Shown here: piece by piece, positions 8,124 to 59,794 of the stretch
Numbering within the stretch: the first letter of the stretch is position 1
Layout: each line of letters begins with the position of its first letter
Assembly (NCBI RefSeq): GCF_964019385.1
Contig: NC_088646.1
Coordinates: 14,153,405-14,217,404, forward strand
DNA: 64,000 bases
Reading direction: 5' to 3'
From: Sycon ciliatum
Lineage: Eukaryota; Porifera; Calcarea; Leucosolenida; Sycettidae
Made by a program: the position numbers and the translations under genes
The notes under the pieces: model-generated
The model's database searches: none
Told to the model about the DNA's origin: nothing
Seen by the model: the letters and a program-made list of their open reading frames with translations, nothing else

Positions 8124-8134
8124 TTCTCCCCCCT
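8124..8134 (-). promoter_or_regulatory. Polypurine tract of the BEL/Pao element
   Basis: Immediately 5' of the 3' LTR the minus strand reads AGGGGGGAGAA, the expected RNase H-resistant primer for plus-strand DNA synthesis. Between it and the pol stop codon (8135-8352) is about 220 bp of non-coding sequence. That stretch includes a purine-rich run on the plus strand at about 8268-8310. Confidence 0.85.
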
Positions 8135-8352
8135 GGTTACGAACCGTGGGAGAGTTAACATAAACATGCAAAAAAGAACAGAAGAAAAGCGAAGAAGACT
8201 GTATTAAAACCTAGCAACCATCGTGTTATTTGAGTAGAAATGAGGGTGGACGGTCCATGGACGCACGAAACAAGAAAAAGGAAAACAAGAAAAAAAAGAG
8301 AAAAAAACAGCGCAGCTAGCTGCAGCTCAGAAGTGCGGGAGGCATGACAGCT

Positions 8353-14418: not shown

Positions 14419-14625
14419 AAGCTCCTAATTCTCTTGTTGGTTAGAAGGTGTTCTTTATTGATCTGTCCCTGTTCTCGGGAGTTGTGTGATTATAGGAAAA
14501 ATAGTGTGCAAAGTGAGTCGGACATGTATGGAAAAGTGTTGTATCGTGCTCTTTACAGTGGGTGCCCAATCGGGCAAAGCACAAACGAAAAGGGTGCCGT
14601 GAGTCAGTGCTGTCATGCAGCAACA
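14369..14625 (-). repeat. 5' LTR of the BEL/Pao element
   Basis: 257 bp, TG...CA ends, identical to the 3' LTR. Transcription should start within it, upstream of 14418 if the first ATG of the ORF is used. Confidence 0.97.
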
Positions 14626-17549
14626 TTCACTTTGCGACTAAATTATTCAAAGCAGTGCCAAATTTTCTGGGTCACTGAATGTGGGTGCCAGCGCCCTACA
14701 AGCAAACCAAAAATCAAACCAATGCGACCACTGACATTACAGCTGGCTCATGTTATAGAGAGATACGTTGAAATTCAAAGGTGAGCACAAATGGTCAAAA
14801 TCCGACATTTTCTCACCTTTATGCCCGTTTACAGCTCAGAAATTGACAATAACAATCCTCATCTCGTTGTGTAGCTGGACATCGACAAGGGCACCAAGAG
14901 AAACAGTCACATTTCTCTAAAGAACTTGCCCAGGGCTGCTGAAAGCTGAATAATAGCCTATCTCCAAGTTTAGGGCTTGGTACCCGTGAATCTTCACTTT
15001 GCGACTAAACTATTCACAGCAGTGCCAAATTTTCTGGGTCAAAATAAAACCAATGCGACCACTGACATTACAGCTGGCTCATGTTATAGAGATACATTGA
15101 AATTTAAAGGTGAGCACAAATGGTCAGAATCCGACATTTTCTCACCTTTATGCCTGTTCACAGCTCAGAAATTGACAATAACCATCCTCATCTCGTTGTG
15201 TAGCTGGACATAGACAAGGGCACGCAGGAAAAGACCCACATTTCTCTAAAGAACTTGCGCAGGGCTGCTGAAAGCTGAATAATAACCTATATCAAAGTTT
15301 GGTGCTTTTTACTCATTTTGTAGATAGGTACGTTGAAATTGGAAGGTGAGCACAAATGGTCAAAATCCGACATTTTCTCACCTTTATGCCCGTTCGCAGC
15401 TCAGAAAATGACAATGACCATCCTTATGTGGTTGTATAGCTCGACATACACAAGGGCACCAAGAGAAACAGTCACATTTCTCTAAAGAACTTGCCCAGGG
15501 CTGCTGAAAGCTGAATAATAACTTAGTTATCTCCAAGTTTAGGGGTTGGAACCCGTGAATCTTCACTTTGCGACTAAACTATTCACAGCAGTGCCAAACT
15601 TTCCGGGTCACTGAATGTGGGTGCCAGCGCCCTACAAGCAAACCAAAAATCAAACCAATGCGACCACTCACATTACAGCTGGCTCATGTTATAGAGAGAT
15701 ACGTTGAAATTCAAAGGTGAGCACAAATGGTCAAAATCTGACATTTTCTCACCTTTATGCCCGTTTACAGCTCAGAAATTGACAATAACAATCCTCATCT
15801 CGTTGTGTAGCTGGACATCGACAAGGGCACCAAGAGAAACAGTCACATTTCTCTAAAGAACTTGCCCAGGGCTGCTGAAAGCTGAATAATAGCCTATCTC
15901 CAAGTTTAGGGCTTGGTACCCGTGAATCTTCACTTTGCGACTAAACTATTCACAGCAGTGCCAAATTTTCTGGGTCACTGAATGTGGGTGCCAGCGCCCT
16001 ACAAGCAAACCAAAAATAAAACCAATGCGACCACTGACATTACAGCTGGCTCATGTTATAGAGATACGTTGAAATTCAAAGGTGAGCACAAATGGTCAGA
16101 ATCCGACATTTTCTCACCTTTATGCCTGTTCACAGCTCAGAAATTGACAATAACCATCCTCATCTCGTTGTGTAGCTGGACATAGACAAGGGCACCCAGA
16201 AAAAGACCCACATTTCTCTAAAGAACTTGCGCAGGGCTGCTGAAAGCTGAATAATAACCTATATCAAAGTTTGGGGCTTTTTACTCATTTTGTAGATAGG
16301 TACGTTGAAATTGGAAGGTGAGCACAAATGGTCAAAATCCGACATTTTCTCACCTTCATGCCCGTTCGCAGCTCAGAAAATGACAATGACCATCCTTATG
16401 TGGTTGTGTAGCTCGACATACACAAGGGCACCAAGAGAAACAGTCACATTTCTCTAAAGAACTCGGCCAGGGCTGCTGAAAGCTGAATAATAACCTATCT
16501 CCAAGTTTAGGGGTTGGAACCCGTGAATCTTCACTTTGCGACTAAACTATTCACAGCAGTGCCAAACTTTCTGGGTCACTGAATGTGGGTGCCAGCGCCC
16601 TACAAGCAAACCAAAAATAAAACCAATGCGACCACTCACATTACAGCTGGGTCATGTTATAGAGAGGCACGTTGAAATTCAAAGGTGAGCACATTGGTCA
16701 AAATCCGACATTTTCTCACCTTTATGCCCGTTCGCAGGTCAGAAAATGACAATGACCATCCTTATCTCGTTGTGTAGCTGGACATGGACAAGGGCACCGA
16801 GAAAAACAGTCACATTTCTCTAAAGAACTCGCCTACGGCTGCTGAAAGCTGAATAATACCCTATCTCCAAGTTTAGGGCTTGGTACCCGTGAATCTTCAC
16901 TTTGCGACTAAACTATTCAGAGCAGTGCCAAATTTTCTGCGTCACTGAATGTGGGTGCCAGCGCCCTACAAGAAAACAGAAAATCAAACCAATGCGGCCA
17001 CTCACATTACAGCTGGGTCATGTTATAGAGAGGCACGTTGAAATTCAAAGGTGAGCACAAATGGTGGAAATCTGACATTTTCTAACCTTTATGCCCGTTT
17101 GCAGCTGAGAAAGTGACAATGACCCTCCTCATCTCGTTGTGTAGCTGGACATAGACAAGGGCACCAAGAAAAAGACCCACATTTCTGTAAAGAACTCGCC
17201 CAGGGCTGCTGAAAGCTGAATAATAACCTATCTCCAAGTTTGGGGCTTTTTACCCGTGAATCTTCACTTTGCGGCTAAACTATTCACAGCAGTGCCAAAT
17301 TTTCTGGGTCACTGAATGTGGGTGCCAGCGCCCTACAGGCAAACCAAAAATCAAACCAATGCGACCACTGATATCATAGCTGGCTCATGTTATAGAGAGG
17401 TACGTTGACATTCAAAGTGAGCACAAATGAACAAAATCCGACATTTTCTCACCTTTATGCACGTTCGCAGCTCAGAAAATGACAATGACCATACTCATCT
17501 GTTTGTGTAGCTGGACATAGACAAGGGCACAAAGAGAAACAGTACCATT
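14626..17549. repeat. 367 bp satellite array, block C, with ~970 bp higher-order unit
   Basis: About nine monomers. Two blocks, roughly 14753-15684 and 15685-16656, repeat the same order: a full monomer, a shortened one (GTTATAGAGATACG, then only about 235 bp to the next), and a variant with the junction TTTTTACTCATTTTGTAGAT. That junction occurs near 15307 and 16279, 972 bp apart. The first block has an extra 37-40 bp deletion near 15040. This shows amplification of a multi-monomer unit. Confidence 0.9.
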
Positions 17550-18272: not shown

Positions 18273-19008
18273 TCTCTAAAGAACTCGCCCAGGGCTGCTG
18301 AAAGCTGAATAATAACCTATCTCCAAGTTTAAGGCTTGGTACCCGTGATTCTTCACTTTGCGACTAAACTATTCACAGCAGTGCCAAATTTTCTGGGTCA
18401 CTGAATGTGGGTGCAAGCGCCCTACAAGCAAACCAAAAATCAAACCAATGCGACCACTGACATTACAGCTGTGTCATGTTATAGAGAGGTACGTTGAAAT
18501 TGGAAGGTGAGCACAAATGGTCAAAATCCGACATTTTCTAACCTTTATGCCCGTTCGCAGCTGAGAAAGTGAACATGACCATCCTCATCTCGTTGTGTAG
18601 CTGGACATAGACAAGGGCACGAAGAAAAAGACCCACATTTCTCTAAAGAACTCGCCCAGGGCTGCTGAAAGCTGAATAACAACCTATCTCAAAGTTTCGC
18701 GCTTTTTCCCGTGAATCTTCACTTTGCGACTAACCTATTCACAGCAGGGCCAAATTTTCTTGGTCATTGATTGTGGATACCAGCGCCCTACAAGCCAACC
18801 AAATATCAAACCAATGCGACCACTGACATTACAGCTGGCTCATGTTATAGAGAGTTACTTTGAAATTCAAAGCTGAGCACAAATGGTGGAAATCCGACAT
18901 TTTCTCACCTATATGCCCGTTTGCAGCTCAGAAATTGACAATAACCATCCTCATCTCGTTGTATAGCTGGACATAGACAAGGGCACCAAGGAAAACAGTC
19001 ACATTTCT
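18273..19008. repeat. 367 bp satellite array, block D
   Basis: Two monomers between two TIR insertions, with several private substitutions. Confidence 0.93.
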
Positions 19009-19977
19009 CGTCAGGCGAAATAGCACGTCATAGTACATTTTAGATCAGCGGGAAGAAGATGACGGCGTCCACTAATTTAGTATCTGTGCACACGAATCTG
19101 CTGTGTGTGTGACTCTGTGTGTCAGCTATGATATCATCTTCTGTGGTTCCATGCCTAGCAGGTACGTCTGTACCATCCTGCAAAGTTTGAATGACGTAGG
19201 TTGAGTGATCGCTCCGCGAAACATACTTTTTGAAATTCTCTTCATAGTATATCTTCCACCATTGAAATTTCGAATTTCTTCAAAAAAAGTGCTGAGAGGG
19301 GTGGCTTGCAACCTCGATATGGCTTGTTCCAGGCATGCTTTGGAGCCATCTTCTGTTGAAGTAGTGGCGGGGATCTGCCCTGCAACTGCTACAACAAAAT
19401 ATGATTCGATCTGAGAAAGGGTGAAACCGCGAATCTCGGTTGAATATTGAGTATTTCAAGCCTTTTCACGACGAAGATGGAGTTCTTTTTGGAGATGGAC
19501 GTCGCGGCAAAGGACATGGTGTCCGACTTCTGGCGTCTGGTGAAGCCTGGGATAATTTGTCCAGTCAGGTCGGCAGCCTAACCGTCGGTAAGCTTGTGTT
19601 TGGATCCCGTTCTGCTCAATGTGGTAGATCACAAACAATTTGATATCGCACAAATTGATCTCAGTATCGTGCGTACGGTATTTTATGTTCAGAAAATCCC
19701 AAAGTGTCTCTGTGTGGCCGTCCTATGCCACGAGAAACTCCAATCAGGCTCCTATGTCGTCTGCCTTCATGATTGAATGTCCACTTCGTTTGAACAACGA
19801 ACACAACAATCGAGGACGGCTTTGCAATGAAAAATACAGCTATACTGGAGCTGAAAAAAAGAAAGAAAAAAACGTGCTCAGGATGAGACTCGAGTACACG
19901 CATACTCTCCCAGCAGGTGAAACGCAAATTTTTGTGAAAAATTCGTGTCGCCGACTGACCAGTAATTTCGCCTGACG
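19009..19977. mobile_element. CGTCAGGCG-ended TIR element, copy 1
   Basis: 969 bp starting CGTCAGGCGAAAT and ending with its exact complement. The flanks TTTCT and CTAAAG join to give the normal satellite sequence, so there is no obvious target duplication. A second copy lies at 62075-63025 in opposite orientation, which defines the element independently. Short frames in both copies give similar peptides (FFEEIR.FNGGRYTMKRISKSMFRG), possibly a captured or residual coding piece; there is no recognisable transposase. Confidence 0.8.
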
Positions 19978-21365
19978 CTAAAGAACTTGCCCGGGGCTGC
20001 TGAAAGCTGAATAATAACCTATCTCAAAGTTTGGGGCTTTTTATCCGTGAATCTTCACTTTGCGACTAAACTATTCACAGCAGTGCCAAATTTTCTGGGT
20101 CACTGAATGTGGGTGCCACCGCCCTACAAGCAAATCAAAAATCAAACCAATGCGACCACTGACATTACAGCTGTGTCATGTTATAGAGAGGTACGTTGAA
20201 ATTCAAAGGTGAGCACAAATGGTCAAAATCTGACAATTTCTTACCTTTATGCCCGTTCGCAGCTCAGAAATTGACAATTACCATCCTCAGATTGTTGTGT
20301 AGCTGGACATAGACAAGGGCACCCAGAATAAGACCCACATTTCTCTAAAGACCTCGCCCAGGGCTGCTGAAAGCTGAATAATAACCTATCTCAAAGTTTG
20401 GGGCTTTTTACCCTCGAATCTTCACTTTGCGACTAAACTATTCACAGCAGTGCCAAATTTTCTCGGTCACTGAATGTGGGTGCCACCGCCCTACAAGCAA
20501 ATCAAAAATCAAACCAATGCGACCACTGACATTACAGCTGTGTCATGTTATAGAGAGGTACGTTGAAATTCAAAGGTGAGCACAAATGGTCAAAATCCGA
20601 CATTTTCTTACCTTTATGCCCGTTCGCAGCTCAGAAATTGACAATTACCATCCTCAGATTGTTGTGTAGCTGGACATAGACAAGGGCACCCAGAATAAGA
20701 CCCACATTTCTCTAAAGAACTCGCCCAGGGCTGCTGAAAGCTGAATAATAACCTATCTCAAAGTTTCGCGCTTTTTACCCTCGAATCTTCACTTTGCGAC
20801 TAAACTATTCACAGCAGTGCCAAATTTTCTCGGTCACTGAATGTGGGTGCCACCGCCCTACAAGCAAATCAAAAATCAAACCAATGCGACCACTGACATT
20901 ACAGCTGTGTCATGTTATAGAGAGGTACGTTGAAATTCAAAGGTGAGCACAAATGGTCAAAATCCGACATTTTCTTACCTGTATGCCCGTTCGCAGCTCA
21001 GAAATTGACAATTACCATCCTCAGATTGTTGTGTAGCTGGACATAGACAAGGGCACCCAGAATAAGACCCACATTTCTCTAAAGAACTCGCCCAGGGCTG
21101 CTGAAAGCTGAATAATAACCTATCTCAAATTGGGGCTTTTTACCCTCGAATCTTCACTTTGCGACTAAACTATTCACAGCAGTGCCAAATTTTCTGGGTC
21201 ACTGAATGTAGGTGCCAGGAGGCCTACAAGCAAACCAAAAATCAAACCAATGCGACCACTGACATTACAGCTGGCTCATGTTATAGAGAGGTACGTTGAA
21301 ATTGGAAGGTGAGCACAAATGGTCAAAATCCGACATTTTCTCACCTTTATGCCCGTTCGCAGCTT
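19978..21365. repeat. 367 bp satellite array, block E (end of array)
   Basis: Four monomers with CTTTGCGACTAAACTATTCA at about 20058, 20426, 20791 and 21157. They share private variants such as TCAGATTGTTGTGTAG and GAATAAGACCCAC, so they arose by local duplication. The array ends where a monomer runs into a CA microsatellite. Confidence 0.93.
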
Positions 21366-26077: not shown

Positions 26078-26089
26078 TTAAAGGGGAAG

Positions 26090-26678
26090 TTAAGGCAAAA
26101 ATTAAAATTTCACCTGTTGTAGTCTTCGGGGTGCTGAGTCGAATGGTCTTGGTCCGAGGAAGCTGAGACGCTCCCTTCCTACTTGAATCCCAATCGAACT
26201 CGCGCACTTCCACCGAAACTGGGTGACTGCGCCCTACTAGATGGGGATTTGCATGCAAAATTTCACTAAAAGCGCCATTTCGTTCTTATAAAAGCACGGA
26301 TGAGCACGATTGGCCCATATGTTGTAGTCTTTTGGACGCTAAATCGAATGGTCTTGGTCCGAAGAGGCTGCGATATAGCGTTCTGCTCTTATTTCCAATC
26401 GAACGCGGTACGTGATCCCGTACGGATGCGTACAAAAGACACCGTGCCTGCCAGTGCATGCAGTGCACTGACCGGTCGACCACTGCTGACTGTGCCGGTG
26501 CACAGACTCAGATGGCTGCAGTCTGTGAGACTGTGACACGATCGAGTACAATGACATGGCATCTCGATAACGCGATCTCATCAAGAGTTCATGGACTTTG
26601 GGTCTATGTTACATAGCCAGCTAGCCAGACGTACATGTCGACGAGGGTGTATGACGGGAAGAGTTCAAAGTGCACTGC
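26090..26678 (+). repeat. Left 589 bp arm of the Kolobok element
   Basis: Inverted copy of 40295-40883 with high identity. It contains an internal duplication: GTTGTAGTCTTCGGGGTGCT...GAATGGTCTTGGTCCGA near 26117 and again (GTTGTAGTCTTTTGGACGCT...) near 26322. These could be paired transposase-binding sites. Confidence 0.9.
26287..26294 (+). promoter_or_regulatory. TATA box in the left arm
   Basis: TATAAAAG reading inward. It is the mirror copy of the box in the right arm. Confidence 0.4.
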
Positions 26679-26934
26679 ACTGCATGCACTTTTTTTTATT
26701 TTTTTTTATTTTTACGAGAAGCCACGAACCTCGAGAACAGAATACTGCATGGTAGAGGTGGTTGCAGACGCAACTGTGGTGGTGAAAACTGGAGCATCTC
26801 CGCCGACCTGAGGTCTCGGCTTCAGCGACACTTCAGAGCACCAAAAACTGGGGAGGAGTAGGCACAGGGGGAGGGGAGGGGGGTACATTTATATAGAGGA
26901 AGGAAAAACGGAGAGATGATACATGTGATAGAGG

Positions 26935-27008
26935 AAGAAAAAAATAAAATAAAAAATAAATAAATAAAAAATAAATAAAATAATAAAAAATAAAAAAAAT
27001 AAAAAGGG
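26935..27008. repeat. A/T-rich simple repeat in the LINE 3' region
   Basis: AAATAAAATAAAAAATAAAT-type tract on the plus strand, hence T-rich in the sense of the LINE, so it is not its poly(A) tail. Confidence 0.85.
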
Positions 27009-27048
27009 GGGAGCCAGGGTGCAAGCAGAGAGGGTGTTCAGGGAGTGT

Positions 27049-30009
27049 TCAGAGGGCATCTGTGGCTGAACGCCAGTCTCGGCTGCGGAGCGACTTGTAG
27101 GCGCCTTCCTTGAATGCCTGCATTCCCTTCTGCGTGGGAAGGTTGCGTAGCAGGGCAGATGGGAGACGATTCCAGTCTTGGATCGTGGCATGGGGGAATG
27201 ATCGGAGAGCACTATTACGGGCTCCGGCGGGCAGTGTCGGTGCTAGTTGGTGCTGGTGCTGGTTCTTTTGCTGGTGGCGAGTGGAGCGCCGGTGCTGGTT
27301 TGCAACTGCCCTCGGTGGTGTCATGGTGGTCAGGATTGGGGGACCGTCGATCCAATGCAGCTTGTACAGGAATGTGAGTGCTGCGACTTGACGCCGAACA
27401 GTGAGGCTTGGGAGGTATGACCCTGGGCCGATGAGCTTTAGGGCTCGGTGCTGTACCCGGTCCAGCTGGTTCAGGGTAGACTGGGACGCACCCAACCATG
27501 AAAGCGGGCAGTACTCAAGTACTGGGCGGACGAAGCCGCGATACACTGCATACTTGGCCTTGCTGTCGAGAATGGGCAGGGCCTTCCTCATGAAGCCAAG
27601 ACGTTAGTGACCACGGACTGCAACCTGTCGAATGTGGGAGCGAAAGGAGAGGCTCCGATCAAAGAGCACTCCGAGCAACTTCAGCTCCTCCACTTCCTCT
27701 ATGGCCACCCCATTGAAGGTGGCTGGAGGAATCAGCCAGGGTTGACGGTGATGCGAAACTGTCAAGACTTGCGACTTTGTCGGCTCGAATGCGATCTTCC
27801 AGCTCTGGCCCAATTCAGCTAAGGCATCCACAGCAGTCTGGAGCTGCGCTAGGCCAACTGGGAGAGCGGTCAGGGATGGGATGCACTGATAAAGCGTGGT
27901 GTCATCTGCATATATGGCGAGCTGGGTTGTGGCTGGGAGGTGGTCCTCCATGTCATTGACATATAGGAGGAACAGAGTGGGGCCCAGTATGCTCCCTTGC
28001 GGCACACCTGAGCTGATTCGGAATTTAGGTGAGGTTTGTCCACTCACAACGGCCTGGATTCGTCTATCCGCCAGGTAGCTGTGGAGCCACTTGAGGAGGT
28101 TCCCGGACACTCCGTAAGCCTTTGCCTTGTGAAGGACACCTGCGTGGGAGACTTTATCGAAGGCCCCCGCAATGTCGACGGCAACAATACGTACAGCACC
28201 GCCAGCAGCTGCTATCTTGCTCCATTGGTGGTGTAGTCCTGTTAGGAGATCAGCAGGTCCTAACCCTCGACGAAAACCGAACTGGTGGTTTGAGAGTATA
28301 TTATTTCGTTCGAGAAAGTTGGTGAGAGCACGGTTAACAACTGCTTCCATTGTCTTGGAGATGAGCGACAGGAGGGAAATGGGCCGATAGTTCGATGGGG
28401 CTGACTTTGACCGTTTCTTATGGACTGGGACGACACTTGCCACTTTCCAAGACTGTGGTTGTGTCCCCGACGTCCTGCACTGGCGGAAGAGCAAGCATAG
28501 TGGCACTGCAAGGTGCTCAGCGTTGGCTTTGAGGACTCTGCCCGGAACTGCATCAGGGCCTGACGCTTTCGAAGGATCAAGGGCCCTCAGCAATTTACGG
28601 ACCTCAGCAGGGCGGAAGCGAATACTTAGGAGACGGCTTTGGGAGCGAGGCTGGACAAAGGGGAATTCAGATTCCTCATTGAAGTCCTGTGGGCCGAGGC
28701 TGCACTTATCGGCGAAGTACTGACCAAGGCACTTGGCCTTCTCCTGACTGGTTGTGTACTCAGTTCCATCAGCAGATCGGAGTGTTGGTATATCAGCGCT
28801 GCGGCCCTTGCCACCCGCACGCTTGATAGTGGACCACCATTCCTTGTCCCGAAGGCTACCAGTGGTGAGTTTCTGCCGGAGCATGGTAATATGCCGTTCT
28901 CTGTTTCGCTGGATGGTACTGCGTGCAGAGGCTGCAGCTGTGCGGTAGTGTGCTTTCTTATCAGCACTGTCGGGATTTGAGCGCATCTGGTGCCACATCT
29001 GTCGCTTGGTGTTGACTGCAGCTGTACACTCCGGTGTCCACCAAGGTTCGTCGGAGGGGCGCGATGAGATAACTCTGTTGGGTATGAATTGTGCCATTCC
29101 TTCGAGGATCCTCTTGGTGATGTTGTCGCAGCTGAGATCCGGTTCAGGTCCGAGCATGCTCTCCCAGTCTGTTGTTCGGTAGAAGTGGCCAAGCCGCTCC
29201 CAGTCTGCGCGGTGGTATCGCCAGACTCTACGCGATGTCTTGGGCTCACGGGTGAGCTTCACAGGAAAGTCAACTTGGAGGACAGCATGATCAGAGAGTC
29301 CAATAGGCGGGTGTGCCTTAACAGTTGCTGGTGAAGGGAAATCAGACATCACCAGGTCCAGGGTGTTATCACCTCGGGTGGGTACGTCGACATGTTGACT
29401 CAGGCCATGGTAGCAGCAGATATCCTCTGCATACTCTCCAGCTCGGGTGGTCTTGTTGCTGCAGAGCCGGGCAGCGTTATGCACATTGAAGTCGCCGGTC
29501 ACAATGACATTTGATCCGTAGGTACGGGATGCCTCCAGCGTGTTGTCCAAGTATTCCAATAGCTGGAGATCTGTCTCCGAACAGGACCCGGGCCGATAGG
29601 CTGCACAGATAACAACTTTCTGTCCACTCTGCGTCGTGACACTCAGCCAGATGATCTCGTGATCATGGCACTGGATGTGATCAAGATGTTCATATCCTAG
29701 GCCAGCCTTCACCCAGACTGCTACTCCACCACCGTGTGCAGAGCGATCCTTGCGGATGGGGGTGTGATAGCCAGGCATGGCTGCTTCAGATTCGCTGCAC
29801 TTCTCTGGCGTAAATTTTGTCTCTGTGACTACTGCTATATCTGGCTTCAGGGTCTGGAGGGTGTGGCGGAATTCTGCAAGCTTGGACGATAGGCCAAAGG
29901 CATTCGTCACCAAGAGTCTGAACATCGTTGGTTGGCTACTGGGCATCGTGCATGCTAGACGATCCCTTGAGGGCACCAGACGATTCATCAGTGTGCTGGA
30001 ACTCACCAA
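27049..30009 (-). pseudogene. LINE ORF2: AP endonuclease and reverse transcriptase, one in-frame stop
   Basis: The N-terminal AP endonuclease shows VTETKF (E63), GDFNVHN (D172) and SDH (H241). The RT has NYRPISLLS, QFGFR, VAVDIAGAFDKVSH (catalytic Asp), SGVPQGSILGP and YADD at 700-703. After residue 801 a TAA (27604-27606) interrupts the frame, but the same frame continues for about 185 codons as the normal C-terminus (YAVYRGFVRPVLEYCPLSW, QLDRVQHRALKL). Catalytic residues are intact; only the nonsense codon breaks it. The numbered start (30009) is TTG; the first ATG is seven codons in, at 29988, and another precedes the endonuclease (FRLLVTNAFGL). There is no RNase H. The clade (CR1/L2/Jockey group) is inferred from architecture. 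Confidence 0.9.
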
Positions 30010-30063
30010 GTTTGGATTGCAGTCCGAAGGGATTTGTCAGCAGGAGCGTTAGGCTTGGGGGAA

Positions 30064-30903
30064 TCATTTGGATTGCTGCTCAGTGCGTTCCTTAAATCGC
30101 CATGGCCTCGCGTACAGGGGCCTTGGCCAGAAATTCTCAGTTGTGACCAGGGTGAGGTCCTTAGCGTCCACAGTTAGGTGGGCAGACACTCTTCCTGCCT
30201 CCGTGGTGTGGAGGCTGCAAGTGTGCACCGTTGCCGTACCCCCTGCTGCAACTGCACGCTGGCGGGTGAAGCATTTCAGTCCCTCCTCAGTACAGCTTGA
30301 GCTTAAATTGCCTACATACAAAACTGCCCTCCTGGACCTGGGAGGCTCTCCTGACACCAGTTGCCAGCTGTCGTCGTCTAAGACCTCCAGGACTGGCTTG
30401 GAGCGATGTTTAGCGCTCCTGCTGTAGGGGCCCTCAATGCCAATGTCAATGATCTCAGAATTACTGTCTTCCTCACCGGACGCCTCAGGGTCACTGCCAG
30501 TGTCACCCACGCTACGGGGCTCACCCGTACTAGCAGTGCACGCGGCAGCCTGGCCTGTGCGGGTACGGGTACGATTTCTTGACGATTTCGTAGATCTACT
30601 CTTCGTACGCTGGCTCTGCTGAGGAGCTTGAATATTTGGGAGAACACTTGCCTTGGCAATGGCGGCTTCCTTGAGGGAGACAACTTCCTGAGTCAGGCCT
30701 GACACTTGCCGCGACAGGTCATTGATTCTTTTGTTGAGGCGATCCTCGCGATCGGCCGACTCGGACGCTAAGTTCGCCAGGGTCTTCAAGTGATAACCTC
30801 AATCACAGACGACTCGATACCCGGGAGGGAGCACATGGGAGCACAACAGTTTTGTCTCTACCTCTGAGAGCCCCTTGAGGGCGGCCTTTGTAGCTGGGGG
30901 CAT
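30064..30903 (-). pseudogene. LINE ORF1 protein (coiled coil plus RRM-like), one in-frame TGA
   Basis: It starts at ATG 30901-30903 (MPPATKAALKGL). A TGA at 30799-30801 interrupts after 34 codons; the same frame then runs 243 codons. Visible features are a coiled coil with heptad spacing (DREDRLNKRINDLSRQVSGL), a Ser/Arg/Lys-rich linker, an acidic segment and a possible RNA-binding fold around RAVLYVGNLSSSCTEEGL. This fits an RNA-binding ORF1 protein that assembles the LINE ribonucleoprotein. The stop could be a mutation. ORF1 and ORF2 are separated by roughly 55-80 bp. Confidence 0.7.
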
Positions 30904-31163
30904 GGCCGCCAGAGGTGGGCCAGCCCTACTACACGATACTAACTAACTAATACTGCTAGTGGTCCTCTTGGCCACGCCGACGGGCTGCCAGAGACTGAAA
31001 AACTGCGGAGCTCAAAAATTTGCTTCCACTTCAGAAAAAAAACTGCTTTGAATCTGGGTGTGAAATGCCCTTCGTTTTCCTTTTTCATGGTGACACTATA
31101 GCCGCTCAGCACTGTGAGTTTTATTTTTGCTGCCACTACGTTTGCTATTCGTTTACCTCGAAA

Positions 31164-32812
31164 ATGGCTGGCAGGGAGACCCCGACGAGTTCGCGTACAG
31201 AAGCCGTCGATGTATTAGCATATGCCAGGGAGCCACAGTACACGAGCGAGGAGCTCCAGAGTTTGCGTGACGGTGGCGATGAGCACGTTGAAAACGAGGA
31301 GGAAGCTGCTGCTGCTGCTGCTGCTGCTGCGAGCGTCGAAGAAGCCTGGCCTCCCCACACCAGAGTCGGCAACAGTTCCTGGTGTGAATGTACATGCTGC
31401 GTGCAGATGGAGTGTAGACTGGACTGCATATGCTGCCGTGAAGTGGATGCTGTGCTGCAGTTCCTCTCAGGCACAGCACCGAACAGTGCGTGTCTGAGAC
31501 AGAGGAATTCAAAACCGGTTGCCTAAATAAACACGTTTTGACCATCGCCTTGCGCGGATACCTGGACATGACCAAGCAGCTCTGTAACCAGCCGCCGACA
31601 CATTTTGACAATAGGTGAGTGAGTTCAACTTCAATTTTTATCTTGCTTTAGCTGTGGTGTGTAGATGTACGGATAAAAAAAAGGTCTTGGGAGGAGTGGG
31701 GTGAACTCGGTGTTTGGTCACAACCCACAAGTTCTCAGTAACAGTTCACTGTGGGTGGCACTAACAGCGCGGCTGGATAAACCTGTCCCAAACAGGGCTT
31801 GAACCAGGTACCTCGCCCTGGTCTGTCATCAGTGACGGTGGTCTCAGAGTGCGGCTGCCTGCTTCGTGCCTAGAATGGTAAAGAAATACTGGTAAACATG
31901 ACAATTTGATCCAAATGATGACCTGATTTGCTCCATTTTGCATGGGAGAATGCAGTAGAAAATAATTGTAAGAACACTAGAAAAAACGGAGTGCAGCCAG
32001 GCATCAATCACCTCTTGCAAATGGTACGTACATGGACATCGTTGGCTGAACGCTGGCAGAACTAATGTACATGCATGTATAGTAGGGATGTAACAGCTGT
32101 AACAAGAAAGTAACCGCTGTATTCTATTTTGTTGGATCTGACAGACTGATCCGAGAATATTTGAAAAGGAAACTTCGAATGAACGTTTGAAGTATCATTA
32201 GTACGTGCAGGGACGTCCACCCCGTGAATCACTAAAATACACTGACCTGTGCTCTAAATTTCCAAACGTTTCACCTCAGCAACCCCTCCTACCCTAGTAA
32301 ATTGTACTTCAGGTGGCTGACCGCATCACACGAAAATACTTTCCGACGCCCGTGACATGGATGCCAAAGCGTACTGGAAACGAAGATGGCTTAGTCAGCT
32401 GCTTTGAGATTTGCCAAAAGCTGTGACAGAAGTATCTATCTTCTTAGACGGGATTGGACTCTGTGAAAGTGTGATGTGCTATTCAGTCCACTTTCGTGAA
32501 GTCATGATGGATGGAATATTGTGTACTTTGCCCAGATCATTCAGATATGCTGCCTACCGACAGGTAACGTGGATGATCCATGGGAAAATGGGTCGTGGTG
32601 TAAGATGTCGTATCCCAGCCTGCCTTGTGGGAGCAATACGTCAGTGCTTTCCAAACCCTCCAGGTAAGCATTGATGTCACTTTATGGAGTGAATGCAAAT
32701 ACGAGTGAAATGTGGAAACTCCATTGCCTTGAAGTATGTTGAACTTGAAGATATCAACTTATGAATATAAATGAATGAACGGTTTGGGTGCGGATATGCC
32801 TGCGTGCATGTG

Positions 32813-32863
<51 letters not shown>

Positions 32864-32943
32864 TAATTGTCTGCGAAGGTGTACCGTACCATGGGTTTGA
32901 AGAAGCCAGAGATGAGGAGGCTACTCAGTGGCCTGAAGATTGA
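31164..32943 (+). CDS. P2X7 ballast-type (P2X7 C-terminal) zinc-domain protein, 3 exons, frameshifted
   Basis: Exons are 31164-31614 (donor GTGAGT), 32536-32663 (acceptor TTTGCCCAG, donor GTAAGC) and 32879-32943 (acceptor CTGCGAAG, stop TGA). Intron phases agree across both junctions. The product has an acidic N-terminus, a polyalanine run, then WCECTCC..MEC..DCICCREVDAV, the Cys-rich core of the P2X7 intracellular ballast domain, followed by CLNKHVLTIALRGYL, FRYAAYRQVTWMIHG and RIPACLVGAIRQCFPNPPG. No channel transmembrane segments are present, so this is the zinc domain alone (about 210 aa). Between about 31455 and 31485 the frame must shift by one base to join CREVDAVLQFL to CVSETEEFKTGC, so the copy is probably a recent pseudogene or holds an unrecognised splice. 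It converges with the transposase inside the same TIRs. Function is unknown; the ballast domain of vertebrate P2X7 binds zinc and guanine nucleotides. Confidence 0.7.
32808..32863. repeat. TG microsatellite in intron 2 of the ballast-domain gene
   Basis: (TG)n ending 15 bp before the proposed exon 3 acceptor, where it may replace a normal pyrimidine tract. Confidence 0.95.
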
Positions 32944-33693
32944 CACCATAACTTTTATGAGGTAAGCAATGACTTGCCTTCTCTCTGTATACTTCAATAT
33001 AAACAATGAACAATCTAGGATTCCTGTAGGATGGGCATTTTGGAATCAATGCTGCAATACTGAAGAACTGCATCTTACCTATTTTTACTACTTCAAGAAA
33101 AGTTCACTAAAGGGAAAGCACACTCACACAGTGGCACACTCCACATTCGTGCACAACGGAAAAACGATTCGGAGGAACAACAACCTTGAATTCTGTAGAA
33201 CAATAGCATGGATGCTCGTAATAACAGAATACATTACGACATGGCTGTAGACTGGAGCATCTCCAGGTGTGCGTTCGCACCAATATGACTCGGAGGACAA
33301 TAAATAAATATTCACAAACAAGGTAAGGTAAAACGAGAATCGTTCAAGAGGCTGTCTTAAAACATGTGGAAATAGGCGAGTGGCGACAACAAGCGCAGTG
33401 CAGCACAGCACAAGCTCTGGTGCATCCGGGAAGCTGAGTCATAAGTGAAGACACTTGTGGATATTTTAACATTATGTTAGAGATGGCTGTTCAATTGCTA
33501 AGCAAAGTTGGACTTGAAGGAATATAATAATTATATTGATGCCATGTAAAAAAATCCGTCATGGAACGATAAATAAACGCATGCCATATTCAAACTCAGT
33601 GCTGCGCATTGTGTAGTACGCACATTGGTTACACGCACCAGCTGTGTTGCCATGTGCTCATATTTGGGTGGGAACATCACATTGAACAACACA
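32944..33693. other. Spacer between two convergent genes
   Basis: No domain is recognised. It would hold the 3' ends of both transcripts. AATAAA-like motifs occur on the plus strand (ACAATAAATAAAT, about 33300). Confidence 0.4.
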
Positions 33694-36600
33694 CTACTGT
33701 TGTCCTTCATCTTCGCTGTCCTCTTCTTCCTCCTCCACATACCCTGCATCCTCCTCTAACGTTACTTCGTACTCTTCTTGTTCCTCCTCCTCCTCTGCTG
33801 CAACTGATGGTGATTCTGCTGTTGCTGCCATTGCCAATCTTGTTTTCAGGTTTGCGACAACTGTTGCCTTGACTGGGGCCCCGCGTCGCGACACGTTGAC
33901 AGGCTTACACTTCTGGATGGCTGGGACTGTCAGCCTCTTCGTGGCCACATCACTGACCTGCTGCATCATGCTGTGCATGCATCCGTATTTCTTTTCACTG
34001 TAGATTTTTTTGGCAACGAAATCACCCTTCACTCGAGAAAACTGGACTTTGTACTGTGGCTGTCCTGTTGATGTTGTTGCCTGCTCTCTGCCAGCATTGA
34101 AGTTATGGTCGAGAGCAGCAAGCTGGGTTCGGGCCTCCATTCCCTCTCTACTGAATTGAATCCGCTTCGGCATGTACTTCGTCATCATGCTATGGTACAC
34201 CTGCATGCACATGACGAACAAGAAAGTTATTCAGGTCACTGATACCTGGATTTGACTGATATGCTCCTTATGTCAATTATTGACAGAACTTACGTATGTT
34301 ATGGGAACACAGTGCAATGCTGAGGGAGTCAATATTTTAGTACCACTCCCAATATGAGCACAGTGTTTCGATGATCGGTCTATGTTATGATAGGTGTTTG
34401 GATAACTGACCTTCCTCCATTGGACTGTTGCATATTTGTAAGTGAAAGTGATGCATCAAGGGTCTATTTCCTCCTTACCTCTACGTTTCCAGTGTGCTGA
34501 AAATCTGACAAGCGCATCAAATCTGCCAGCAGTCTCTTGTCTTGGACAACTGATTCCAGAACTTTGTACGCTGGAGACCCTAAGAAAGGCAGAAAGATAT
34601 AGAATCAGAATCTATTAGTGCTGGTCTACTGTTAATTTTTGTGTGCGTGGGTAAAAGTGTATACGTACGCGTGAGATGCTCAGAAATTGTAGTGCTCATG
34701 CATGACTTACTGATAGGGGTGTCATCGAGTAGTAGGGTACCCGTGCTACCCGTAAATAGAGTGGGTATTATGGTTAGGGGTGAAAGGGGTGATCCGGGTA
34801 ACCCGGGTACCCGTCTGTTTAGCTGCTGATCCGTTAGCAAACGAGTACCCGTTAGTCGTGTACGACGGTATGGTACGTTATAATTAGCTGGCTTGTACAG
34901 TTGTACAGTTCGATGTACAGTTTGAATGTGTTGTTGCTAGTTTGATCCTGCTACATATGACAATTTGGACTGTTTTGCATGTAGCGCAGTAAGTGGGCGT
35001 GCTGCGGTTGTCGCGATGTAGTGCATTCGCTGTGAATTGCATGACATCGCATGTCCTCCTGGCACGAAATGCGAAAGGCTATTGTATAGCAACTGTTACT
35101 ATTGGCTGCTAAAGGGTACCCGATAGCCCGCCCGTTAAGCCACGTACCCGTTTGTAACCTCGAAGGGTAACCGTTTCACCCCTAATTATGGTACCAGTTT
35201 ACTCCTGAGAACCCGATCGGGTAGTTGGAGTACGGAGTTTTCGCAACGGTGCATGAAAAAAAAGAAGCATACCTGCAGTGTACACTGTCTATGTAGCGCA
35301 AGTGCACATTCAATGTACAAACTATGTCAAGAAAATACCTGATAGGGTGCCCATGCTACCCGGATAGAAATACCCAATCTCGTTACCCGGCCAAACCCCT
35401 ACCCGTTGCAGCCCTACTTATTGAAATTGATAGTGATAGTGACATAACTTTCACGTTTTACTGACCTGGTGTCAGCCACTTCTTCTGTCGCTGCTCATCG
35501 GTGGAAAGTGGAGGATGTGCACACTGCGTGAAAAGTGTACCCTCAGTCCAGCTATGTCGGTTGACGATGTGGTAGAGGACTGAGTTCCACTTTTCACGCA
35601 GCAGCACGGCATTGCCTCCGCACGACCGGGCGCAGTACCACAAGTGGTTATTGATGGCTGGTAACCACTCGAGCAAGGCCTGCTGGTCTTTTCTCCTGCA
35701 TCCTGCCCTGATCTTGGATGCGACACTCTTGGCATAGTGCCATACATCAAACTGATGCTTGATGGAGTGGCGTCCTCGCATCTCCTTCTTTATGCTGGGG
35801 CTCCGGTCAGTGACAACAGTGGCAATCTGGAGAAGGGGACGAAGCACGTAAATGTACACATAAAAGGAGAGAAATGTAGGATTTGTGGGTGTTTTCCTCA
35901 GGGTCATAAATCATCAAAACAAGCAGAACTTCAAAATGATATTGCAAGTGGCACATTGTTTTAAAATAAGGAAATATATCCAATCTGTACACACCTTCAA
36001 CCCTTGCTCCAAACACTGAACGGTCAAGTGTAACAACGAATCCCATTTTCTCCATTGCCACTGAACTGGTTGTGTCTGTGGACATCGCCAGATGGTAATC
36101 AACAATTAGGTCAGATGCAACATCCATAAAGGTGTATGTCCCAAATCGTGCGGAATACCCAGGGCTGTCACACCTGCCATCGCCAGCTACAGTGAGTTGT
36201 CTGCCTACAGCGTAGCATAGCAAAGACAAAATATGCAGAAACTGTCCTCCTCCTCATCAACAAGGTGTGGGTACAGACTAGGGTCCGGCGGATTCTGCCG
36301 GCAGAAAAATTAGCAGAATTCGGTACTTTTTCTGGTAAGTTTCATGCAGGTTTGGTATGTGGATAAAGAAATGGAGCAGAATTCGAGGAATTGCCCGCCA
36401 TAAGGTTTGTATGGTTCTGCCAATTTCACTGCTCTTGGAGCAGAATCTGCCACCTTTTCGAGCATAATCCACCGGTCCCAAGTACAGACAAACTTTGCGT
36501 ATAACGACACTCGGCAGGGCATCAGAAATGTGTCCTTATTCGCGAAGTGTCCTTATTCGCGAAGTCTCATTATAATGTATACAGTTAGATTTGACTTTGC

Positions 36601-39600
36601 TCTGGGCATGGGAATTCTGTCATTATTCGCGAATTGTCGTTATTCCGTAGTCGTTATTAGCAAAGTTGACTGTACTCCCAAGTGCCAGTAATCTGGTTGT
36701 GAACACAAACAGCTAGAAATACTGATGGGGTTTTAAGTAGGCATGGCCCATGCCGGTAATATTCGCTGGCCAAGGCAGTGAGCAGATTCTCCTGTACTGT
36801 TGTCTCTCAGTTACAACACAGACAATCCAACAATGCCACACAGTTTTGTATACTATAGCACATACAGGTAGCAAAGACACCTTACCTAACAAAAGTGAAT
36901 GAACACGTGTACGCTCTGCAAGCCATGCCGCTTGGATGACTGGAAATACAAACTTCTGTTGTATTGAATAGAAAGTGACTGCAGACATGAATTTCAGGTG
37001 GAAAAATTCAGCAAACTTGCTGAATTTACTGTAGGTGCCGCCACACAGAAGGATGGCTGCTACAAGCAGAACAGAACCTGCAGTGCAAAGTGCCAAGATT
37101 CAAGTACACACAGCTATCACTGTCTTGATCACGATGTGCCAGTCACTTAAACTTCATGTACTGAAGTATATTGTTTGTTTGTCTCGATAAGATTTCAGCA
37201 TGCAGCTCTCAAATCCCAAACATCACTGACTCTCCCATGAACCATGCTTTTTTTTAACTCCTGAATTCTCCTCCCACCCAAATATATGCAGTGCCAAAAA
37301 CCAACCCAAGTTTCAGTAATAGGAGAAATGGTGATTTAACTTAAGAGAAATGGAAGCCAGAAAATACCAGAAATACATGTACTCACACAGTGACTGTCGT
37401 TGACTCCCCGTGGTGGTGTGCGACCGCCAAATGACGACACAGCCCTGCTCACATATCATCTTCACCACTAGCATGGGACCAACTACGGTTTTGCTTTGAC
37501 TGATAACTTTCCCTCCGCACTTGGGGCAATACTTCATTAGCGTAAAGAGGGACGACTCACAGACAAAGTACATGTCTTCAGGTGATGTGTCACTGGCTGG
37601 AGGAGAGCTATCAGATTCGCTGTGGGAGTCGGAACTTTCAGTGCCTGGCACATACTCTGATAAGTTCGATATTATAGTCTCTGTGCTAGATACTTGGACA
37701 CCAGGTGCCGCTTTGGTGGGAGTAGATGGTTGGAGAGTGTTGATGCCAGTGACTGTTTCCCCGAGACCACCCTCTTCTTCCCTGACTCAGCTCCCATCAT
37801 GCCCACCTATAAAAGTAGAGAATCACATGTGGGGGATTAGAATCAAATCAATATTAACCCTTTATTACCGGATTACTTGCACAGCATGCACCAGAATTAC
37901 GAATTTCAGCACAATTTCCAACTTCACCAGGTCATAACTTTGGTCTCCTTCACTTGATTTTCACAATCTAGGGCTCGTTGGAAAGCTCTTGGCGAGAGCA
38001 ACGCCTTGGCTCCAAGCTCCATTATCCAGTCGCCACAAATCAGGCGCGGTAACACAGCAAAGTCGTCTCCAAGCCTGATATGCAAACAAATTCGTCCCAT
38101 CAACGCCATTCCACTCTCCTTCATCGCAGAACGCTCAAATTTGTTTGAGACGATTCAAACTTCAGCCGACTACGTTATTATCATGTGCTCAGTCGCTCAA
38201 AGAGCACACGAAAAGGGAGTTTCCCCAAAAATGGCGAAGTGATCGATCAAAAATTTGAATTTGCCGAGATGAGAATACGGCGCGCGATATCTCTGGCGTC
38301 CGACATCGTAACACTTCGGCGATTGTTGCATTGGATAGCTTGGAGTTTCCGCTACCAAATAGACCTTTCGATTGTTGAATTGGCACAAGAAATGATGGAG
38401 TTACGAAGATATTACTGGCCTACAGACTTTCGATCATAGATGATCGAAAGTCTGCAGGCCGGTAATAAAGGGTTAAAGAATGGATGAGCAAATTGTACTC
38501 TACCTATAGTTCTATACGTACTGTTCAAGTATACATTTTGTTCTTCTGAAGATACACAGAAAACCCTACGCATACCATCCTCAAAGCGAGTGGTCAGACC
38601 ATTTGTGGGGGCATTATAAACTTGTATTTATTGTACTGCAGTCAAACCTCGTTAGGATGAACTTCAAGGGACCGAACAAGTTTGTTTGTCTTATCCGGAA
38701 TTCGTATTATCCAGACCTGACAAAAAATTGATATGCATATTATGGATTGTATTTATGTGAAGGTGCATGCTGTGGCAAACTGTAAGACATTGTTTTCATA
38801 ACATAACCCAGCAACAGGTAAGTACAACATGATGTGCAGTGACTTCATGACAGCATGTCCTCCGCCTTGTAACATGTTTTGCCAGAACAAGATGCCTCAA
38901 TTATCGGAAAAAAAATTACAGCCAGCGCACTCAAGGGGACTGAAAGTTCATACTGCACGCTGATTCTGTTCAAATCACCCTTGAAATTAGTTCGTCTTCA
39001 CGAAAGTTCGCCGTACAGGAGTTCGTCGTGAACGAATAACTTTGACTTGATACTGATGCCTGGCCAACCATAGGATTGGCCCTAGTTCGTACTAAAGGAA
39101 AGTTCGCCTTATCAGTGTTCGTCCTAATGAGGTTTGACTGTATTTCAAAGTAGACAATCAGCAGAGATGGGCACATGCACATGTGGGCTTTGGAAATAAC
39201 TCCAATACTCAGATAATCGGTCGCAGAAAGTCAAGGGACTCGCTTACCTTGGCACTGCTCACTGCATACGCCGTCTTGGTAATGCTATCATGGTCTTGTA
39301 GCTCAATAGTTGGGTATTCCGTGGCTGTGACAGTTGCAGAGGCTATGGGGGGCTGAACTCGATGTTGAGAAATTGACGGCTGCTTGTCTGCTTGAGGCGA
39401 TATCTGTAACAACATGGTAAAGGCAACTGTTGAAATTGTTTGCAGTTATGGCCAGCTATGCAGTTGGTATGTATGCCGCCGTGAGTTATGGCCGAGCATT
39501 ATGCATCAGTCCGAATAGGCCTTTTCAAGCAATTCGCCGATATTTATATACAGTATAATTATCTACAGCGTATAAGTTTAGTTTGGCTTCTGGCTACTCT

Positions 39601-40145
39601 GAAAGCACATGCATCCTAAGATCTGCATACCGGTAGTGGTGTTTTGGTGAAAAGTACAAGTTATTCTGACCACAGACTTTAGTCAAGTAACAATGGATCA
39701 GGTACTGTCTGTGCCGAACTGAAACACTGTATAACAGTCACAGTGCTTCACTTCTCCTTCACTAGAATAATCTAGAGCGGAAACACATTCCGCATCAGGT
39801 ACCGGTACGCGGTATAAAAGCCCGTACCTTATTTGCTTCCCTTTTCTGTTGGTAAGTAGACTTCCGGCGTTTCGGCGGAGGTGGATGGTGTGGCCAAAGT
39901 CTGAGGGACGGAACAGCGGTTGGCTTCAGATGTAGCCTTGGTGGAGTGGTAGCCGAGGGCACATCCGCAATAAAGTCGTCTGGATGTACAAAATGAGCAG
40001 AGCAGACCGCGCAGGTATCGAGCAACGTAACCCTCCTCAGTGCTCTCACCCAAGCGGCGCGTCGTTTTGCCTCTGCGGGGAGTCTGTGAAGGGAGATGCC
40101 TCCACCGCTACGATTTCCGCAGCCCACAACGGCACAGGCAGGCAT
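33694..40145 (-). CDS. Kolobok transposase (THAP + zinc ribbon + DDE), 8 exons
   Basis: Exons, all with GT/AG ends: 40145-39828, 39403-39248, about 37790-37387 (5' edge unresolved), 37077-36886, 36204-35993, 35826-35466, 34579-34479, 34200-33694. Phases match at every junction checked. Exon 1 encodes a THAP finger (MPACAVVGC, W, CSAH, LKPTAVPSL) for DNA binding. Exon 3 has a zinc ribbon (YCPKCGG...CEQGCVVIWRS). Exons 5-7 give the catalytic core: GDGRCDSPG (first Asp), VVTDRSPSI (second Asp), IKHQFDVWH, NHLWYCARSCGG, and HTGNVE (likely Glu). Exon 8 ends VYHSMMTKYMPKR...LAALDHNFNAGREQATT and an acidic tail. Total about 745 aa, normal for this family. The enzyme would excise and insert at TTAA. 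No stop or frameshift was seen. The start is the ATG opening the THAP domain. Confidence 0.78.
34775..35184. mobile_element. hAT MITE in transposase intron 6
   Basis: 410 bp, ends TAGGGGTGAAA and its complement, with an exact 8 bp duplication ATTATGGT (34767-34774 and 35185-35192). An 8 bp duplication is the hAT signature. Its interior and both flanks are rich in GGGTACCCG-like motifs. Confidence 0.85.
36279..36481. mobile_element. hAT MITE nested in a pogo-like MITE (intron 4)
   Basis: 203 bp with imperfect ends TAGGGTCCGGCGGATT / TTGGGACCGGTGGATT and the 8 bp duplication GTACAGAC (36271-36278 and 36482-36489). The duplicated bases are the left end of the neighbouring pogo-like element. Confidence 0.8.
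36485..36672. mobile_element. pogo/Tc1-like MITE in transposase intron 4
   Basis: 188 bp flanked by TA. The left end is CAGACAAACTTTGCGTATAA and the right end is the complement of CAGTCAACTTTGCTAATAAC. It contains repeated TTATTCGCGAA. The left end was hit by the hAT MITE. Confidence 0.7.
37858..38472. mobile_element. piggyBac-like MITE (CCCTTTATTACCGG ends), copy 1
   Basis: 615 bp flanked by TTAA (37854-37857 and 38473-38476). TIR CCCTTTATTACCGG plus an AGATGATCGAAAGTCTG-type hairpin near the right end. Copy 2 is at 51610-52207. TTAA with CCC ends is typical of piggyBac. It lies in intron 2 of the transposase, close to exon 3. Confidence 0.85.
38639..39140. mobile_element. pogo-like MITE in transposase intron 2
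   Basis: 502 bp with ends CAGTCAAACCTCGTTAGGAT and the complement of CAGTCAAACCTCATTAGGAC. TA follows on the right; the left flank reads TG rather than TA. Its ends match the pogo/Tigger style. Confidence 0.75.
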
Positions 40146-40294
40146 TGCCGGTGGTGGAAGGAAACAAAAATAGAAAAACAAACCAAAGGTACCGAGCTGC
40201 TAGCGTCGCCATGAACCAGGATAGCGAAAGGAATTCAGACTTGGTTGGCGATGTACTTCAAACAAAGACTCGAAGTTGTGCATTGCTATTGTTG

Positions 40295-40883
40295 GCAGTG
40301 CACTTTGAACTCTTCCCGTCATACACCCTCGTCGACATGTACGTCTGGCTAGCTGGCTATGTAACATAGACCCAAAGTCCATGAACTCTTGATGAGATCG
40401 CGTTATCGAGATGCCATGTCATTGTACTCGATCGTGTCACAGTCTCACAGACTGCAGCCATCTGAGTCTGTGCACCGGCACAGTCAGCAGTGGTCGACCG
40501 GTCAGTGCACTGCATGCACTGGCAGGCACGGTGTCTTTTGTACGCATCCGTACGGGATCACGTACCGCGTTCGATTGGAAATAAGAGCAGAACGCTATAT
40601 CGCAGCCTCTTCGGACCAAGACCATTCGATTTAGCGTCCAAAAGACTACAACATATGGGCCAATCGTGCTCATCCGTGCTTTTATAAGAACGAAATGGCG
40701 CTTTTAGTGAAATTTTGCATACAAATCCCCATCTAGTAGGGCGCAGTCACCCAGTTTCGGTGGAAGTGCGCGAGTTCGATTGGGATTCAAGTAGGAAGAG
40801 AGCGTCTCAGCTCCCTCGGACCAAGACCATTCGACTCAGCACCCCGAAGACTACAACTGGTGAAATTTTAATTTTTGCCTTAA
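40295..40883 (-). repeat. Right 589 bp arm of the Kolobok element
   Basis: Inverted copy of 26090-26678. It lies about 150 bp upstream of the transposase start codon, so it doubles as promoter and 5' UTR. It ends at the internal TTAA and lacks the outer CTTCCCCT. Confidence 0.9.
40679..40686 (-). promoter_or_regulatory. TATA box for the transposase gene, in the TIR
   Basis: The minus strand reads TATAAAAG, followed by GCACGG, pointing toward exon 1. Initiation about 30 bp downstream would give a 5' UTR of roughly 500 nt. This is a sequence match only. Confidence 0.45.
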
Positions 40884-53116: not shown

Positions 53117-53737
53117 AGGGGAAGTTAAGGCAAAAATTAAAATTTCACCAGTTGTAGTCTTCGGGGTGCTGAGTCGAATGGTCGTGGTCCGAGGAAGCTG
53201 AGACGCTCCCTTCCTACTTGAATCCCAATCGAACTCGCGCACTTCCACCGAAACTGGGTGACTGCGCCCTACTAGATGGGGATTTGTATGCAAAATGTCA
53301 CTAAAAGCGCCATTTCGTTCTTATAAAAGCACGGATGATCGCGATTGGCCCATATGTTGTAGTCTTTTGGACGCTGAGTCGACTGGTTTTGGTCTGAAAA
53401 GGCTGCGATGCAGCGTTCCTCCTTTATTCCCAATCGAACATGGTTGAACAAGCGGTCAAGTGCTCCTGCGTACGCCAGTCACCTGGTCACCGTGCCTGCA
53501 GGGTACAACTTACTAGCCTGTTTGACCTTTTTTGGGTGCAGTCCTGTCACTCGAGTTGAACCTTGGTGTGAAAGTTGTCGCCTGCTGGCGTGGTGACCAG
53601 GTGATTTGGGCACCCAGGAGCACGTGACCGCTTGTTCAACCATGTTCGATTGGGAATAAAGGAGGAACGCTGCATCGCAGCCTTTTCGGACCAAAACCAG
53701 TCGACTCAGCGTCCAAAAGACTACAACATATGGGCCA
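53117..53737. mobile_element. Non-autonomous Kolobok relative (element C), right end missing
   Basis: TTAA (53113-53116) then AGGGGAAGTTAAGGC. The arm and centre match element B, but the centre is in the opposite orientation. Homology stops at ACATATGGGCCA near 53737, so about 310 bp of the right arm is lost. It is 64 bp from element B. Confidence 0.85.
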
Positions 53738-59790: not shown

Positions 59791-59794
59791 GCGG

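Follow-up and report, generated by a model that had tools for sequence, protein, structure and literature searches.

Kolobok transposons carry a DDE triad and a zinc motif, both described in the accessible portions of two papers (PMC9587614 and PMC6004289). For their Kol0 lineage, the accessible part of Kojima and Bao 2022 (PMC9587614) reports that the KolX protein is clearly similar to residues 476-595 of human P2X7 and that P2X7 arose through fusion with KolX. The same source includes sponges among the hosts of Kol0 and places KolX-like parts in a few piggyBac families; we met no mention of Sycon in that part of the text. Here, we analyzed an element in a 64,000-nt stretch of the genome of the calcareous sponge Sycon ciliatum (C4:14153405-14217404), hereafter the window, and searched the 538-Mb genome. 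Coordinates are window positions unless a contig or locus is named. The element is very probably a decayed two-gene Kolobok of the Kol0 kind, with KolX, a stand-alone gene for the ballast domain that forms the tail of mammalian P2X7, as a gene of its own. This assignment concerns the identity of the element only and not the biochemical role of KolX.

A first-pass annotation of the window had placed a THAP-DDE transposase gene inside inverted arms, with a stand-alone ballast gene convergent to it, and both genes were borne out. The transposase gene comprises eight minus-strand exons (40145..33694), with GT-AG borders in the gene model, and KolX has three exons on the plus strand (31164-32943), the 3' ends of the two genes facing each other. 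The Pfam check proposed in the annotation returned the THAP domain in the spliced transposase (PF05485, E 1.8e-11) and P2RX7_C in the spliced KolX protein (PF20478, E 4.1e-11, 43.6 bits against a cut-off of 23.5, with a frame break read as X). In an alignment of 10 transposases, including that of the window, the invariant residues comprise a DDE triad with a C/DxxH motif, placed by motif position (D359, D428, D448xxH451, and E575), and an H2CH zinc motif between the second Asp and the Glu (H507, H512, C523, and H525), both as in Kolobok. Named database matches of the transposase were uncharacterized, hypothetical, or "Transposase," with a few otherwise named.

With a limit of E 0.01, a profile of 20 KolX proteins, from which that of the window was excluded, matched four different PDB sequences, every one of them P2X7; the best match (E 2.8e-17) covered residues 468-592. 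A PDB search with a single KolX sequence was unproductive. P2RX7_C was matched by all 20 members of the profile. The cysteines of KolX lie in the WCxCxxC, CC, CIT, and PSC stretches. They recur across the 20 aligned sequences, of which some are truncated or one cysteine short, and align in part with P2X7 as putative zinc ligands. In the window KolX, the CIT and PSC stretches lie past the frame break. Viral contigs searched with the KolX alignment gave 12 pattern matches and no relatives.

The 589-bp inverted arms of the annotation were confirmed by arm-to-arm comparison (26090-26678 against 40295-40883, 4 mismatches). The arm family has at least 76 genome matches, with the best 40 of 1121 candidates scored, and 41 matches outside the window span arm positions 1-323 or slightly more. 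In all six short copies fetched (L003-L008), one end reads TTAA/AGGGGAAGTTAAGG, where the slash marks the element border, and the other end reads CCTTAACTTCCCCT; a TTAA follows the CCTTAACTTCCCCT end in five of the six, the exception being L005. The left end of the window element, TTAA/AGGGG, is regarded as the true family end because the six fetched short copies share it. A reading of this end as TTAA/GGC was rejected, as family copies show TTAA/AGGGG. The TTAA/AGGGG ends claimed by the annotation hold on the left, with TTAA (26078-26081) before AGGGGAAGTTAAGG, but not on the right, where the element stops 8 nt short at the TTAA at 40880-40883. The window element therefore has a true end flanked by TTAA on the left side only. 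TTAA targets would equally suit a piggyBac element. The termini of arm-family copies are AG...CT (5'-RR and YY-3') and occur with the THAP domain, DxxH, and H2CH, as described for Kolobok, and we consider a piggyBac identity exceedingly improbable.

The missing 8 nt with TTAA have no exact match downstream within the window, and their sole plus-strand near-match, at 53038, forms the terminus of a different short element. The sequence from 40884 matches 39 other places from the first base of the query, most over the first 78 nt, at 97-100% identity. A repeat starting exactly at 40884 was proposed and withdrawn, as the query itself began there and the edge is uninformative. It is plausible that a repeat inserted into the subterminal TTAA at the right end, since three other insertions occupy that very site in the arm family: the C2a element (L021/L022), the element of L028, and one inside the short element at 51599-53049. 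These three cases suggest that insertion next to Kolobok ends favors the subterminal TTAA, which lies 8 nt in from the AGGGGAAG end. The short element at 51599-53049, whose insertion has CCCTTT ends, and another at 53117-53740 are two further members of the arm family in the window. Dating the element by arm identity was rejected, as the arms of DNA transposons need not match at insertion.

A search for other copies of the arms enclosing both genes, which the annotation had named as a way to refute its claim, gave no refutation. Three such elements (C2a, C2b, and C2c) were found on contig C2, which encodes S. ciliatum protein P0001 at 100%. Their arms are 571-572 nt long at 98.4% identity, their ends read TTAA/AGGGGAAG...CTTCCCCT/TTAA, and both genes lie inside. 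For most of their length, C2a and C2b agree at 99.7-100%, and on each side the homology breaks off at TTAA or no more than 1 nt from it. C2b and C2c have the same right flank and are therefore not clearly independent. C2a is inserted into a short copy of the arm family at its subterminal TTAA, and the uninterrupted form in L003-L008 is the empty site; with TTAA on both sides of C2a, this amounts to a TTAA target duplication, as in Kolobok. These copies bear on the alternative that the ballast is a host gene lying by chance inside or beside a transposon. That alternative draws on the accessible part of PMC7016195, which presents ballast-only proteins as ordinary genes in many animals. For the window/C2 family, however, it is already refuted, because the unit of two genes has inserted independently at C2a and at C2b; both genes lie between arms in all three C2 elements, and the C2a/C2b homology ends at TTAA.

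Pairing of the two genes was then assessed across the genome. The searches scored best candidates only, and locus counts are lower bounds. A total of 197 listed ballast matches (150 of 151 from one search and 47 from another) collapsed to 137 loci. Matches of three transposase searches (93, 74, and 97) gave 74 loci, built from matches that define or widen a locus; matches inside existing loci were left out. A ballast locus lies within 10 kb of 39 of the 74 transposase loci, against 0.39 expected under uniform placement, and within 2 kb of 35. Conversely, 41 ballast loci have a transposase within 10 kb; 39 of these are convergent and 2 are tandem, and the gap is at most 1 kb in 34. As a control, only 2 of 56 listed loci of long interspersed nuclear elements (LINEs) are within 10 kb of a ballast locus, and one of these is the window itself. 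Protein P0049, named "P2X purinoceptor 7-like," matches L033 and L034, each with a convergent Kolobok transposase. Invertebrate gene models with this name can thus be transposon genes.

The genome stretches fetched for inspection numbered 24 and were mainly best matches, a non-random sample. Among the 17 ballast places first fetched, ten have transposase-core matches (the three C2 elements, L028, L030, L033, L034, and L039, and fragments in L037 and L038), and L035 and L036 match the THAP part only. L036 is a 2.5-kb internal deletion of an L028-type element in which KolX exon 1 and the THAP exon remain, bounded by TTAA/AGGGG ends. The KolX side of L028, including its end, is also present in L029, L031, and L032 at ~95%. 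Four further places were fetched: L043 is a 0.95-kb element with KolX remains, L044 is a deletion derivative, and L041 and L042 carry convergent transposase remnants that the genome search overlooked. Of the 23 ballast starts in the fetched stretches, 17 have the 9-mer TTAAAGGGG upstream, no more than 1.5 kb away, and none has it downstream. In L030 it lies outside the element's own edge, which leaves 16 upstream cases, and in L023 and L025 the TTAAAGGGG end is 3.4 and 2.1 kb away, past the 1.5-kb limit. The 23 starts are not independent because several belong to one family.

Three counts weigh against KolX as a regular gene of the element: no transposase was detected within 10 kb of 96 of the 137 ballast loci, no ballast locus was detected within 10 kb of 35 of the 74 transposase loci, and five of the 17 ballast places first fetched (L027, L029, L031, L032, and L040) have no transposase match. 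The first of these counts would also be in keeping with a host gene. Against a host gene stand the convergence of 39 of the 41 near pairs, the gap within 1 kb in 34 of them, and the presence of deletion derivatives with Kolobok ends among fetched loci that lack a full transposase; several of the lone ballast loci fetched (L036, L043, and L044) are such derivatives. We therefore judge a host gene caught by chance to be highly improbable. The three C2 elements and the genome-wide convergent pairing support the earlier proposal that the ballast gene is accessory to the transposon. The related proposal that the transposon explains the expansion of ballast genes holds in part, for the 41 of 137 loci with a transposase within 10 kb.

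Other arrangements were seen among the derivatives. Inverted arms of ~890-900 nt occur at L037:3198-5971 and L038:2569-6391, with KolX exons in both arms. L035, L036, and further places represent a multi-copy short derivative with KolX exon 1 and the THAP exon and without the DDE core; its THAP-only protein could act as a repressor. On contig C3, eleven ballast loci lie within 2.5 Mb (26.0-28.5 Mb), most with in-frame stops.

Between the window copy and C2a, the ratio of nonsynonymous to synonymous substitution rates (dN/dS) of KolX is 0.138 over 185 codons (dS 0.225, with 25 synonymous and 13 other changes). That of the transposase is 0.211 over 726 codons (dS 0.175), with exon 2 (0.60) and exon 3 (0.41) the loosest. 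On this purifying selection, KolX has evolved, in the window/C2a comparison, as a gene that the element needs. Over five elements, KolX and transposase distances correlate with r 0.91, and 2 of 120 orders reach as high a value, the true order included; judging from these sequence comparisons, KolX and its transposase seem to have been passed on together. Other values run counter to this picture, with close copies showing little or no trace of selection. KolX of L028 gives a dN/dS of 1.09, 0.97, and 0.96 against L030, L029, and L032, respectively, 0.52 against L031, and 0.31 against L036; the transposases give 0.56 (L028/L030) and 0.59 (L034/L033); and the distance correlation covers five elements, of which two (window and C2a) belong to one family. 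KolX of L034 and L033 differs by one change only, and L037 gives 0.22 against L038 and 0.23 against L039. The close-copy values mostly rest on few changes, and distant families are saturated at synonymous sites.

The KolX gene lies convergent to the transposase and travels inside the element. By analogy with the superfamily, the THAP domain would bind the element ends and the DDE core would cut and join at TTAA. Because KolX is under purifying selection and diverges roughly in step with the transposase, it may be a trans-acting zinc protein needed by the element, most likely as a partner of the transposase in assembly or regulation; we hold this to be evenly balanced between right and wrong. 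KolX could instead be a passenger, or a host-facing factor that acts, for example, on host silencing or expression, with no direct role in transposition. Contact between KolX and the transposase is putative, the accessible part of PMC9587614 gives KolX no function, and the 35 transposase loci without detected KolX within 10 kb are also compatible with such a role. Purifying selection on KolX in the window/C2a comparison is as strong as on the transposase and speaks against a passenger, whereas a host-facing role is unaffected by it. Taken together, a passenger or host-facing KolX seems rather unlikely. A broader and tentative proposal, to which we give somewhat less than even credence, is that KolX is a working part of transposition, selected and paired with the transposase; P2X7 would then owe its ballast to a transposition cofactor, and the zinc and guanine-nucleotide sites of the ballast would have served in moving DNA first. 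The selection values add evidence that KolX matters to the element. With dozens of Kolobok loci carrying a convergent KolX, and with KolX under purifying selection between the window and C2a, a role of KolX in transposition becomes testable, as does the question of whether the biochemistry of P2X7 was inherited from such a role.

The window copy itself is longer than its sisters and damaged. C2a lacks at least six stretches present in the window copy, ~6.9 kb together (a LINE region and five shorter stretches), which therefore explain much of its 14.8 kb; C2a carries insertions of its own. The 14.8-kb Kolobok of the annotation stands as regards the arms and both genes, but about half of it is sequence without a counterpart in the sister copies. 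The LINE region contains a reverse transcriptase/endonuclease open reading frame (ORF; 27604-30036) and an upstream ORF (30064-30798). A target duplication was sought for 26690-31045, and none was identified. Related LINEs occupy at least 56 loci among the matches listed genome-wide.

Relative to C2a, the window genes have frame breaks of +2 nt in KolX exon 1 and +4 nt in transposase exon 5. The extra 2 nt in KolX are an indel, because the residues on either side both align with the C2 protein; a short intron behind the frame change was rejected for the same reason. An intact window transposase was likewise rejected after comparison with P0003 and C2a, and a 743-residue model is open only if the exon 5 donor shifts by 2 nt. 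Barring sequence errors in the indels, the window copy cannot make either full protein. The breaks could be assembly or sequencing errors in an intact copy: both are short indels in one assembly only, and the donor 2 nt away keeps transposase exon 5 open. Decay is nonetheless expected because of the six or more extra stretches relative to C2a and the incomplete right end, and an intact copy is quite unlikely. The features of this decayed Kolobok are listed in the table.

Features of the Kolobok element in the window
Feature	Positions	Strand	Remarks
TTAA target site, left	26078..26081		Precedes AGGGGAAG in all six short copies fetched and in all three C2 elements
Terminal inverted repeat, left	26082..26678	+	Starts AGGGGAAGTTAAGGC
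Stretch absent from C2 copies, with non-LTR (long terminal repeat) retrotransposon	26690..31045	-	Edges are the break in C2a homology
KolX/ballast exon 1	31164..31614	+	Frame shift near 31475-31484, 2 nt more than C2a
Stretch in KolX intron 1, absent from C2 copies	31797..32431
KolX/ballast exon 2	32536..32663	+	90% identical to P0001 residues 150-198
KolX/ballast exon 3	32879..32943	+	Stop TGA
Transposase exon 8, stop	33694..34200	-
Transposase exon 7, candidate catalytic Glu (HTGNVE)	34479..34579	-
Stretch absent from C2a	34770..35199		Appearance suggests a hAT-like short element
Transposase exon 6: second Asp (TDR), DxxH, H2CH zinc motif	35466..35826	-
Transposase exon 5, first catalytic Asp	35993..36204	-	Frame broken by 4 extra nt relative to C2a
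Stretch absent from C2a	36275..36671		Taken, by its look, to be a Tigger-like short element
Transposase exon 4	36886..37077	-
Transposase exon 3	37387..37771	-	Acceptor picked to preserve frame, from the gene model alone
Insertion between TTAA sites, absent from C2a	37858..38472		Ends CCCTTTATTACC...GGTAATAAAGGG; by its look, presumably a piggyBac-type miniature inverted-repeat transposable element (MITE)
Insertion absent from C2a	38638..39140		Ends CAGTCAAACCTC...GAGGTTTGACTG; which we take, by its look, to be a Tigger-like MITE
Transposase exon 2	39248..39403	-
Transposase exon 1, THAP domain	39828..40145	-
Terminal inverted repeat, right	40295..40879	-	Without the terminal 8 nt CTTCCCCT
Subterminal TTAA where right arm stops	40880..40883		Repetitive sequence from 40884 onward

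Elsewhere in the window, a Pao/BEL LTR retrotransposon at 7864-14628 has 263-nt LTRs that are 100% identical and one open frame (8353-14424, minus strand), and it is flanked by arrays of a 367-bp satellite. Satellite arrays with a period of ~366 bp are at 2627-4850, 6518-7867, 15093-17543, 18273-19009, and 19978-21364. A reverse transcriptase frame at 59561-60898 starts within a 19/38-bp tandem repeat. A tRNA scan of the window was unproductive.

The window element can be compared with described systems. Xenopus Kolobok and T2-MITE, in the accessible part of PMC6004289, share with it TTAA, AGGRR-type ends (one Xenopus end is AGGGGAACTATCATGA), THAP, DDE, and H2CH, and their MITEs share end features with coding copies, as is the case here. 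The text of that paper nowhere mentions KolX, which the window element carries. KolobokP has long terminal direct repeats and a His-Me nuclease; the arms in the window are inverted, and no His-Me nuclease is among the Pfam matches of the two spliced window proteins. P2X7 and the nanor-like proteins have in common with KolX the cysteine-rich ballast domain (PF20478). In the accessible part of PMC7016195, however, P2X7 figures as a channel fusion and nanor as a host gene, whereas the ballast here lies in a mobile element.

In our literature search, which was poor in subscription journals, the link between Kolobok and the ballast was found in PMC9587614 only. The transposon origin of the ballast was already published there in 2022, and the window element is a further example. 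What is new here is the convergent pairing seen throughout one genome, together with the selection values, in that neither was met in the accessible parts of PMC9587614, PMC6004289, and PMC7016195. By the description in the accessible part of PMC9587614, the closest likeness is to Kol0 Kolobok, with which the window element shares a DDE transposase, an accessory KolX gene with the P2X7 ballast domain, TTAA, RR...YY ends, and a zinc motif between the second Asp and the Glu; it differs in its 585-597-nt arms, its many insertions, and its broken genes.

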